63,792 nucleotides of DNA, taken from positions 1 through 63,792 of the forward strand of contig JAITJI010000091.1 of the NCBI GenBank assembly GCA_031279015.1, read 5' to 3'. This document shows, in pieces, positions 4,614-7,330 of this stretch (position 1 is the first letter of the stretch; each line of letters begins with the position of its first letter). The stretch is from Spirochaetaceae bacterium. GTDB lineage: Bacteria; Spirochaetota; Spirochaetia; Treponematales; Breznakiellaceae. The translations under genes and the position numbers were made by a program. Under the pieces are notes generated by a model that was given only the letters and a program-made list of their open reading frames with translations, had not been told where the DNA came from and made no database searches.

Positions 4614-5453
4614 ATGTTGAAGTTTGAGTTGTGGTACCCTGTGTTGACCGGTACGATTGTATCTGTAATAGTATGTTTCTGTGCAATTTTTCATCGATAT
4701 CCATCCGAGGTAAAGGGACAAGACAAAGAAATCTTCCGGTTTGTCGAATCTCCGGAATTCGATATTCCGGAAGACCCGGAAGAGACGCTCCGGGTTGTTC
4801 CCGTGTCCTTTTCGGGCTGGGAATTGCCCTCCGGCGCCAATCTTATCCTCGATGCCTACCGGAACGATGAGGTCCGGGAACGGGTAGTGGAATTCTTCAG
4901 TGAAATTATCCGGTCCCGGGACCTGGCCGTCATTATCCTGACCAATGCCGATGCCTTTAATATAAGTCCAAGCCTTGCCTTTGCCCTGTGCTGGAAGGAA
5001 AGCCGTTTCAATCCCCGGGCGGTGAACCGGAAAAACCGGAACGGCAGTATTGACCGGGGGCTTTTTCAGTTGAACAGCATTTCATTCCCCAAGTTGACGG
5101 AAGAAGCCTTTTTTGATCCCGGTCTCAACGTCTATTACGGTATGGCCCATCTGCGCTGGTGTCTGGACACGGGCGGATCGGTGGTTAGCGGGCTTGCCAT
5201 GTACAATGCCGGGACAAACCGGGTCAATACGGGGGGTACGCCGAAGAAAACCCTGGACTATGTCTCCCATATCCTGATGATTCAGGCCGGCATTGAGGAG
5301 TTATTTGCGGAGTATCAGGTTCCGGGCACGGAGGCCCCTTCCGAGGAGGTTCCGGCGCCCTCCCTCTCCGAGGCTGAGCCCAAAGATCAGCCCTGGGAGG
5401 TGGTATCCCGGCCTCATCTGGCTTTGCTCTCACCGGTCCGGGGCTATCCCTAA
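4614..5453 (+). CDS. Membrane-anchored lytic transglycosylase (SLT domain)
   Basis: A 279-residue protein with one N-terminal membrane segment (about 8-26) that anchors it outside the cytoplasmic membrane. An SLT/lysozyme-like domain follows: catalytic Glu in CWKESRFNP (E129), the GLFQLN motif (DRGLFQLNS), and AMYNAGTNRV. Such enzymes cleave peptidoglycan between MurNAc and GlcNAc with 1,6-anhydro ring formation, for growth or insertion of envelope machines. The tail after about 240 is a Pro/Glu-rich linker. The start has GGGAG four bases upstream. It overlaps the convergent GH5 gene by 4 bp at the stops. Confidence 0.9.
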   Translation: MLKFELWYPVLTGTIVSVIVCFCAIFHRYPSEVKGQDKEIFRFVESPEFDIPEDPEETLRVVPVSFSGWELPSGANLILDAYRNDEVRERVVEFFSEIIRSRDLAVIILTNADAFNISPSLAFALCWKESRFNPRAVNRKNRNGSIDRGLFQLNSISFPKLTEEAFFDPGLNVYYGMAHLRWCLDTGGSVVSGLAMYNAGTNRVNTGGTPKKTLDYVSHILMIQAGIEELFAEYQVPGTEAPSEEVPAPSLSEAEPKDQPWEVVSRPHLALLSPVRGYP

Positions 5454-7330
5454 GCCCGCCGGGCCGTCAGGATCACTTCCCCGGCATAGCCGCTGTTCGT
5501 CACAAGGATCCTCCGCTCCGCCGGAACATAGTCCGCCCGGAGTTCCGGAGCCTCCCCCCCGGCGGGGGTTCCGGCGTGTATAACCGGCCTTTCCCCCAGG
5601 CATTCCGGGGGGGCAAAGATCTCCGTCGCCGCGGAGATACGGGGTTCCGCCTCGTACCGGTACCGGAAGAGACCTTTTTTCCGGTTCCAGGTAATGCTGA
5701 TGGGCTTACCCGCAGTAGCCATGGGGTAGGGCCTCTGCCAGCCCCCCAGGGCCCGTTCCCCGCCGCAGTAGATGGACAGGTCCTCCCCGTTCCAGTGGTC
5801 CCCGTCCTGGTTGGTGTTATCCGCAGTATAGGTCCAGATGGTTGAGTGGAGCAGATTCGCATCAATGGCGTCGTAGTAGAGGGATAGGGCCTCTTCGTGG
5901 AGGCGGTAATCCCCGGTTTTATAGGCCTTCTTCCCATTCATATCAAAGGGAAGCCCAAATTCCCCCAGAAGGCAGGGCAGGTCCCCCATGTGTTCCCGGG
6001 ACCAGGCCACATTTTTTGCCAGGGCATCCCGAAAGTAGGCGGCCACCCTTTCCCGGCCCAGGAGGATCCTGGCGGTATCGGTGTTGACGTTAAACCAGGG
6101 GCGGAAGAACCGGGAGAACAGGGTGTATCCGTCGTACCAGTGGAAGGCGTTTACCACCCCGGAGGCCTTCTCTTTGGACCAGGAGGGGTGTATACCCATG
6201 GGAATGCCCTCAATAAAGGCAATGGTCCCCCTGTCCGCCTCCCGGATTCGTTCAATAAAACGGACCATAAAGGGGGCAAGGAAGTCGTCCGTAAAATGTA
6301 CCGGTCTCCCCTTGTAGACGGCAAAATGATCCCCCCTGAGCAGACGGATCTCTCCCCCCTCACTGGTCCATACCCCCGCCTTTTCCCAGGGGCAGCTATA
6401 CCCCTCCCGGAAGAGGGATACCCCCCGGGGGTTGACGGTTTCCCGGCAGACAGGCCGGGGCCCCAGAAAGCCCATCCGATAAACCGGCGCCTCCCGGGGG
6501 TAACCGGAAGCGGCGGCCATGGTGTCAACGGGACTGAGCATGGGTCCCATATAAACGATGGGGTTTTCTATCCTCCCCAGGTCCTTAAGGCCGATAAAAC
6601 CGGGGTTTGGTTCATTCATGATGCCCCATCCGGCAATAGCCTTGCAGTTTTTAAGCCGCCGGAAACAGTGGCGCATACAGGCCAGATACCGCTCCTGGAG
6701 CCAGTCCTGGGCGCTTTCACCCTCTATCCGGGTCTCCGGGGCGTAGGTGTTTCCGGCAAAAAAGAGGGTAAAGAGGGTGGCCGCGGCGTAACGGTTGTAA
6801 TTGGTGGGCCAGATCATCCGGGGAAAGGGAGCGCCGCCGTGGAGTTCCCCGTAACCCTGGTGGGTAAGGGCCGCTCCGGTAATCTCCAGCTTTTCCGGGT
6901 CCATGCCCAGCTTTTCCAGAGTCCACAGGGGGGCGCCGTCCCCGCCGGTCCAGCGGCTCCACACATCCTGATGGGGGTCAATGAACACGGATATGCCCTT
7001 TTCCTCCGCCACGAGGAGGATCTTTCTGAGGTAGGCCATGTATGCCTCGTCGTATATCCCCGGCCCCGCATGTTCCAGGGCCTCCCAGGTGATGATAAAG
7101 CGGAGGAAGGTGAAACCCCGTTTTTTCAGCCGGTCAAAATGGGCCTCCGCCTCTTCCAGGGGGAAGGGACGGCCTATAAAGGACGCCTCCGCCGGATCGG
7201 CCAGGGAACCGGGGTCCCGGGTTGTTCCGGGGGGCTGCGTCGGAATCTTAGAGCTGCCCCCAAGGTTGCAGCCCCGAAGCATCAGGGTTCTGCCCTGATC
7301 ATCAAAAATATTCCGGCCTTGTATATACAT
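5450..7330 (-). CDS. Cytoplasmic glycoside hydrolase family 5, resembling subfamily 12 glucosylceramidase/steryl-glucosidase
   Basis: A 626-residue GH5 enzyme with acid/base Glu in GIMNEPNPG (E240) and nucleophile Glu in LLGEFGLP (E457). The segment DPHQDVWSRWTGGDGAPLW and FTLFFAGNTYAP recall, from memory, the GH5_12 group of fungal EgCrP1/EgCrP2, which remove glucose from glucosylceramides and steryl glucosides. There is no signal peptide, so the substrate must enter the cell or be made there. The C-terminal ~120 residues form a beta-rich domain. GGGAGGGG precedes the ATG. Family 5 is secure; the subfamily and substrate are inference. Confidence 0.85.
   Translation of the reverse strand: MYIQGRNIFDDQGRTLMLRGCNLGGSSKIPTQPPGTTRDPGSLADPAEASFIGRPFPLEEAEAHFDRLKKRGFTFLRFIITWEALEHAGPGIYDEAYMAYLRKILLVAEEKGISVFIDPHQDVWSRWTGGDGAPLWTLEKLGMDPEKLEITGAALTHQGYGELHGGAPFPRMIWPTNYNRYAAATLFTLFFAGNTYAPETRIEGESAQDWLQERYLACMRHCFRRLKNCKAIAGWGIMNEPNPGFIGLKDLGRIENPIVYMGPMLSPVDTMAAASGYPREAPVYRMGFLGPRPVCRETVNPRGVSLFREGYSCPWEKAGVWTSEGGEIRLLRGDHFAVYKGRPVHFTDDFLAPFMVRFIERIREADRGTIAFIEGIPMGIHPSWSKEKASGVVNAFHWYDGYTLFSRFFRPWFNVNTDTARILLGRERVAAYFRDALAKNVAWSREHMGDLPCLLGEFGLPFDMNGKKAYKTGDYRLHEEALSLYYDAIDANLLHSTIWTYTADNTNQDGDHWNGEDLSIYCGGERALGGWQRPYPMATAGKPISITWNRKKGLFRYRYEAEPRISAATEIFAPPECLGERPVIHAGTPAGGEAPELRADYVPAERRILVTNSGYAGEVILTARRA

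Follow-up and report, generated by a model that had tools for sequence, protein, structure and literature searches.

The closest characterised relatives of the bacterial protein described here are two fungal steryl-glucosidases, Sgl1 (EGCrP2) of Cryptococcus neoformans and SglA of Aspergillus fumigatus. The Sgl1 study describes a cap over the barrel, which forms an enclosed Y-shaped cavity, and Trp584 as a wall stopping a second sugar; mutation of K47, H142, D144, Y453, W570, E587, E270, or E520 cut or abolished activity, and N269 and W584 are absent from the mutants named in the section on these changes (PMC8497620). In the subfamily passages of Aspeborg et al. (2012), Cryptococcus sequences are named within subfamily 12 of glycoside hydrolase family 5 (GH5_12), and Rhodococcus endoglycoceramidase II (EGCase II) is placed in GH5_28 (PMC3526467). 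We analysed a stretch of 63,792 nucleotides (the window; contig JAITJI010000091.1 of assembly GCA_031279015.1) from a Spirochaetaceae bacterium, whose minus strand carries at 5450..7330 a gene predicted to encode a GH5_12-type beta-glucosidase of 626 amino acids. The ATG lies at complement 7330 and the stop codon ends at 5450; all parts of the gene given below are on the same strand. An earlier, sequence-only reading of this DNA had proposed a bacterial cytosolic GH5_12-like enzyme that degrades glucolipids, either those of the bacterium's own membrane or steryl glucosides from a host or diet. The genome is indeed that of a spirochaete. Any implied novelty for a bacterial GH5_12 enzyme was not upheld, since the same passages of Aspeborg et al. 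report a bacterial-dominated clade within GH5_12 (PMC3526467). The window protein is very likely a member of this clade; bacterial GH5_12 is itself not new, and the protein is ordinary as a family member. No study of a characterised bacterial GH5_12 member was found among the titles and abstract openings of the open-licence literature, although GH5_12 is mentioned once each in several papers on bacterial genomes, for example those of Marinobacterium, Streptomyces, and Segatella.

Both motifs from which the likeness to fungal enzymes had first been noticed are present in the frame, and the likeness was found to span most of the protein. In the phmmer alignment with Sgl1, the motif DPHQDVWSRWTGGDGAPLW (residues 118-136, 6923..6979), which includes H120 and D122 (Sgl1 H142 and D144), agrees at 17 of 19 positions and the motif TLFFAGNTYAP (residues 188-198, 6737..6769) at 9 of 11. 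The window protein and Sgl1 are identical at 202 of 513 aligned positions (39%). When the protein was compared with the PDB by phmmer, SglA (8EXD; 332 bits, E 4.4e-98) came first, Sgl1 (7LPO) gave 330 bits (E 2.3e-97), and the next family was that of EGCase II with 53 bits (E 1.8e-13). A profile of 43 sequences gave E-values of 3.9e-155 and 4.5e-143 for SglA and Sgl1 and 3.9e-31 for EGCase II. We take 7LPO and 8EXD to be filed under GH5_12, and with the nearest solved structures as a proxy the best match lay within this subfamily. The enzyme is thus predicted with confidence from the alignments to be of the GH5_12/sterylglucosidase type, the label GH5_12 denoting here the nearest neighbours, Sgl1 and SglA, rather than a match to a CAZy subfamily model.

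The predicted fold gave the same nearest neighbours. An AlphaFold2 model of the 626-residue protein (pLDDT 93.2, pTM 0.93) was superposed on SglA (8EXD) with Z 46.5 and 2.0 Å over 607 residues, and on the Sgl1 structures over 611 residues at 2.0-2.1 Å with Z 42.5-44.1 (7LPP: Z 44.1, 2.1 Å); the best row for EGCase II (2OYM) reached Z 31.6 and 2.9 Å over 415 residues. Since about 190 residues past the EGCase core are common to the model and the fungal enzymes, the fungal cap is probably included, and cap elements are probably present over the TIM barrel of the modelled protein. The Pfam Cellulase domain (PF00150) was matched with 45.4 bits, above the cut-off of 23.5, and only by this gene in the 2.69 Mb genome, whose assembly is about 90% complete. 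The Pfam GH5 C-terminal domain (PF18564, Glyco_hydro_5_C), a beta-sandwich, was matched with 38.2 bits, also above its cut-off, and its best-matching stretch comprises residues 533-575 (5606..5734).

Alignment to Sgl1 located the active site. The residues of Sgl1 that bind glucose (K47, H142, D144, Y453, W570, and E587) are all identical in the window protein, where, besides H120 and D122, they correspond to K28 (7247..7249), Y399 (6134..6136), W499 (5834..5836), and E516; this bears out the expectation of glucose at the -1 site. E516 closes the stretch W513-N-G-E516 (5783..5794), in which W513 is the counterpart of Sgl1 W584, the Trp described as keeping out a second sugar. The predicted acid/base, E240, follows N239 (6611..6616; Sgl1 N269 and E270), and the predicted catalytic nucleophile is E457 (5960..5962; Sgl1 E520). 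The residues for glucose binding and catalysis were invariant, as was the blocking Trp, in the 43 rows of an alignment of the window protein with 42 relatives. In a wider set of 54 bacterial rows, which includes the window protein and in which two rows are the same protein, the positions of Sgl1 K47, H142, D144, N269, E270, Y453, E520, W570, and W584 held the same residue in all 54; the position of E587 was Glu in 53 and Gln in one.

The start of the gene is informative as to location. The open frame has 633 codons, and since only 7 of these precede the ATG, a longer leader would not fit and a signal peptide is unlikely. The N-terminus of the protein, MYIQGRNIFDDQGRTL, appears hydrophilic by eye. 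Each of the 20 relatives fetched has a start codon no more than 3 codons away from the equivalent position, and in 14 of the 20 no other start is available at the match or upstream of it. The earlier reading of a protein without a signal peptide is thus supported.

From the modelled fold, the active-site residues, the lack of room for a signal peptide, the distribution, and the neighbouring genes, we infer the activity, the aglycone, and the cellular role as follows. The protein would be a cytosolic retaining beta-glucosidase of the GH5_12/sterylglucosidase type acting on amphiphilic beta-glucosides, among which a membrane glucolipid is the likeliest, a reading to which we give a probability of about 0.6. 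It would remove one beta-linked glucose from such a compound, the glucolipid being either imported or synthesised by the cell itself. In the predicted mechanism, K28, H120, D122, Y399, W499, and E516 would hold the glucose, while W513 would shut the pocket so that a single sugar fits, and the cap over the TIM barrel would house the aglycone. E457 would attack the anomeric carbon as E240 protonates the departing aglycone, and E240 would then activate a water molecule. As for the substrate, our reading places amphiphilic glucolipids as the most likely, soluble plant glucosides second, and steryl glucosides third. The sequence-only reading as a whole was thus supported in part; its enzyme class and location stood, and its glucolipid is the part that we reach by argument.

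The neighbouring genes of relatives were named by Pfam or NCBIfam for part of them, and the rest by blastp cluster, record annotation, or eye. In one spirochaete family (f5), all six loci (L022, L031, L032, L122, L123, and L124; Pfam was applied to two of the six) have a gene for an alpha/beta hydrolase immediately upstream in the same orientation, with gaps of -4 to 23. In a Leptospira-type clade, the gene found in this position and orientation is that of a patatin-like phospholipase at four of five loci (L132, L133, L137, and L142, with gaps of -1, 2, -1, and 127), the fifth, L135, being without it. Since the loci within each group are related, the ten loci with a lipase neighbour were counted as two events. 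Lipid-hydrolase neighbours in two spirochaete lineages other than that of the window favour glucolipid turnover, and are suggestive only. A GalU-like gene lies directly 3' at L032 (gap -4) and L125 (gap 46; 214 bits, under the cut-off of 326.8), and a convergent alpha/beta hydrolase gene is found at L025, L041, and L126. At L142 of Leptospira interrogans (NZ_CP020413.2, 4986-8234 of the locus), the patatin-like phospholipase gene and the GH5_12 relative are followed by a gene for a TIGR04454 lipoprotein. At L160 (G573, from the phylum of the Anaerolineae), the gene lies 3' of one for a long membrane protein (gap 21), the C-terminal part of which resembles a PlsC-type acyltransferase by eye.

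Several observations weigh against a glucolipid substrate. In the window and in close relatives, the gene shares no operon with a lipase gene, and its flanking genes, convergent on one side and divergent on the other, are unrelated. In the window, the SLT transglycosylase gene that converges on it overlaps its 3' end by 4 bases, and the divergent gene on its other side encodes a HEAT-repeat protein. No conserved operon was seen in the window's own family, where synteny looks merely positional. Elsewhere the same-strand neighbours are mixed, several of them named by eye: for example, nitroreductase-like at L127 and L128, luciferase-like and amidohydrolase at L121, and radical-SAM-like at L139. 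Mixed neighbours were also found at loci that we take to be those of Spirochaeta thermophila and at the f38, f39, and Chloroflexota loci. On two Rhizobium plasmids (L143 and L144), the relative is divergent from a sugar ABC transporter and has a regulator gene on its 3' side, a neighbourhood that suits a soluble glucoside. The plasmid neighbourhoods cover two of three Rhizobium records and one of two Leptospira records, and the later neighbourhood set comprised seven of nine loci. The proposed glucolipid therefore gains from the neighbours in two spirochaete lineages and loses by the two Rhizobium plasmids.

The pocket and the glycosyltransferases of the genome add to these doubts. The sterol-pocket positions L290, L431, L458, and A470 of Sgl1 correspond to V259, M378, L404, and T417. 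The L458 position is identical in the window protein and hydrophobic throughout the bacterial rows. That of L290 is hydrophobic in every one of the 43 close rows, whereas some of the 54 wider rows depart from this; the L431 and A470 positions vary widely in bacteria and include polar residues. Selection in bacteria has, to judge from these rows, not fixed a sterol-like pocket wall. Since replacement of L290, L431, or A470 by Gln was without effect in Sgl1 (PMC8497620), this variation neither proves nor excludes sterols. The MGDG-synthase-like domain PF06925 had no match in the window's own genome and was matched in 2 of 58 family genomes, in one of them above the cut-off. The GT21-type domain PF13506 was found in 24 of the 29 family genomes that carry the gene and in 16 of the 29 that do not (Fisher p 0.045, all 58 genomes), a weak link that fades with genome completeness (p 0.18 at >=80% and 0.36 at >=90% complete); counts of strong matches were 20 of 29 against 11 of 29 (p 0.034, 0.073 at 80%, and 0.12 at 90%). 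Carriers are here the 29 genomes with a strong match, and G018, which has fragments, and four genomes with weak hits were counted as non-carriers. Since PF13506 is broad and its match in the window's genome is a GT2 enzyme, whose best NCBIfam match, HpnB, is far under the cut-off, we did not rely on this link. The window's genome also holds, at L152 (G000:C68, 1477-3390), a gene for a membrane GT2 protein (HpnB/CruG-like) followed directly by one for a PlsC-type acyltransferase, both below cut-off; going by these likenesses, the pair could make an acylated glycolipid.

The gene is widely but unevenly distributed. A match at E <= 1e-5 was found in 48 of 97 genomes, the window's own included and fragments counted; four of the 48 are weak (E 8e-7 to 3e-15) and perhaps represent other GH5 enzymes. 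Among evenly drawn Spirochaetota genomes, 42 of 392 had a match (own included), as did 6 of 301 genomes from the phylum of the Anaerolineae-type locus, including the known carrier at its centre. A scan of GTDB contigs confirmed 381 relatives, of which the best 80 were used; 75 of these bear spirochaete titles and 5 Chloroflexi or Anaerolineae titles, and among these 80 the nearest relatives with names are Treponema sp. and Spirochaetaceae metagenome-assembled genomes. All but L109 of the 80 were extended to proteins, L110 and L119 being cut by contig ends, and 42 of these proteins make up, with that of the window, the 43-row alignment. Identity to the window protein reaches 68%, and the gene looks absent from many treponemes. 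We take G026, G102, and G143 to be Treponema caldarium and two strains of S. thermophila, which are free-living thermophiles. Two further genomes we take to be those of termite-gut strains: G037, with the orthologue at C1:3850104-3851978, would be T. primitia ZAS-2 and G027 T. azotonutricium ZAS-9. If the thermophile identities are right, neither an animal nor a fungal host is required.

Nine records labelled as plasmids had a match: two from Leptospira interrogans, three from Rhizobium, and four from Sphingobium, the Sphingobium matches covering half of the query. The candidate of a phage origin was rejected, with no match in phage records (E <= 1e-5) or PHROGs (E <= 0.001). At L145, on a Sphingobium plasmid (5983-7778), the match spans two adjoining genes annotated as hypothetical proteins and covers the first half of the query; the gene is possibly split or broken, and this partial row was excluded from the tree and the residue counts. 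In G018 (C76:5581-6402), a genome of the window's family, gene fragments alone were found, one with an internal stop, which reflects decay or an assembly fault. At L066 (DYPP01000077.1, titled Treponema denticola) and L098 (WRGH01000100.1, titled Brevinematales), the gene stands beside genes of the window-family neighbourhood, and these organism labels may be wrong. In family f3, the flanks of L129 are those of the window's family (PTS EIIA, SLT transglycosylase, and a serA-like dehydrogenase), those of L163 and L164 are partly the same by eye, and L141 has the EIIA gene in common. Since f3 and the window's family have these flanks in common, the gene looks old at this spot. In an IQ-TREE phylogeny of 56 rows, the window protein grouped with that of a Treponema metagenome-assembled genome (97/94). 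The fungal pair (100/100) fell among bacterial rows, with most of the spirochaete and Anaerolineae rows, and a 100/100 branch parts the fungal pair and the window protein from Rhizobium and three other spirochaete rows. The tree was rooted at our discretion, and it does not fix the exact place of the fungal pair within its side.

The substrate could instead be soluble. A cytosolic aryl- or flavonoid-type beta-glucosidase would act on imported plant glucosides, with the large pocket under the cap holding a flat hydrophobic aglycone. The GH5_12 passage of Aspeborg et al. records that a yeast flavonoid beta-glucosidase was known in the subfamily before lipid activities were found (PMC3526467), the pocket walls vary among bacteria, and the two Rhizobium copies face a sugar transporter and have a regulator gene on their 3' side. 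These copies, however, lie across the 100/100 branch from the window protein and the fungal enzymes, and may form a soluble-glucoside branch of the family. No transporter adjoins the window's gene, and the lipid-hydrolase neighbours in two other spirochaete lineages weigh against a plant glucoside. The genome holds GH1 enzymes at two places and GH3 enzymes at three, which could already serve ordinary soluble beta-glucosides. We therefore regard a soluble plant glucoside as rather unlikely for the window protein.

Hydrolysis of glucose from imported steryl glucosides of fungi, plants, or a host appears more doubtful still. It is favoured by the activity of the fungal relatives, with which the window protein has the fold and glucose site in common, by the lack of a second PF00150 match in the genome, and by M378, which, when mapped by hand from the phmmer alignment, falls on Met406 of SglA, a residue listed for the sterol pocket in the SglA study (PMC10128061). 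On the other side, most of the pocket wall is unconserved, the gene is also present in Anaerolineae and in the genomes presumed to be of free-living thermophiles (G026, G102, and G143), and steryl glucosides would need a way into the cytosol. The N-terminal domain of squalene/oxidosqualene cyclase had no match in the window's genome or in 96 relatives (the control matched in 1 of 14 genomes). Sterols or hopanoids of its own, and hence an endogenous steryl glucoside, are therefore unlikely, so that any such substrate would have to be foreign; sterols made by the bacterium itself were rejected as a source on this basis in the 97 genomes. The distribution and the variable pocket thus weaken the suggestion that steryl glucosides of host or diet are the specific target.

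An endoglycoceramidase or beta-glucanase, which would cut an oligosaccharide off a lipid or attack plant beta-glucan, is very improbable. In its favour are the common GH5 fold and C-terminal domain and the sole NCBIfam match of the protein, endoglycoceramidase I (NF051847). That match, however, reaches 62.5 bits where the cut-off is 700, the likeness to EGCase and cellulases in sequence and fold is by far the weaker, and an export leader would find no room. The endoglycoceramidase and cellulase readings were rejected by score, fold coverage, and the invariant blocking Trp.

A glucolipid substrate leads to a broader proposal, which we put forward tentatively and at less than even odds. In sterol-free bacteria, this widespread enzyme with the "fungal" steryl-glucosidase fold would act on bacterial glucolipids, and in some lineages it would form a two-gene module with a lipid esterase, an alpha/beta hydrolase or a patatin, by which the acyl part is taken off. 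The fungal enzymes would then represent an offshoot, adapted to sterols, of an older glucolipid hydrolase of bacteria. The bacterial relatives raise the question of what this fold does apart from sterol metabolism, and for spirochaete biology the protein is a candidate enzyme for the turnover of membrane glucolipids. The bacterial branch of this drug-target family is wide, and its glucose site is nearly invariant in spirochaetes, Anaerolineae, Rhizobium plasmids, and a Leptospira interrogans replicon; because of this conservation, inhibitors directed at the glucose site may also hit the bacterial enzymes.

Of the known systems, SglA (8EXD) is the best match by sequence and has the highest Z by fold. 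It has a Met at the same pocket position and 34% identity in the structural alignment, and differs in having about 60 additional residues ahead of the C-terminal strands. The likeness to Sgl1 (7LPO, 7LPP, and 7LPQ) lies in the fold, the catalytic pair, the glucose site, and the Trp that blocks a second sugar. Sgl1 has a long insert between the barrel and the C-terminal strands, whereas the bacterial protein is without it, and residues of the pocket wall differ. A report on Sgl1 places that enzyme in the fungal vacuole (PMC12061408), whereas the bacterial protein is predicted to be cytosolic. EGCase II of Rhodococcus (2OSX) has the GH5 barrel and the beta-sandwich in common with it, and the hQD, NEP, and GEFG stretches align. 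However, its E-value is more than 80 orders weaker, the superposition is limited to about 415 residues at 2.9 Å, and it belongs to a subfamily described as extracellular and has an active site open to long glycans.

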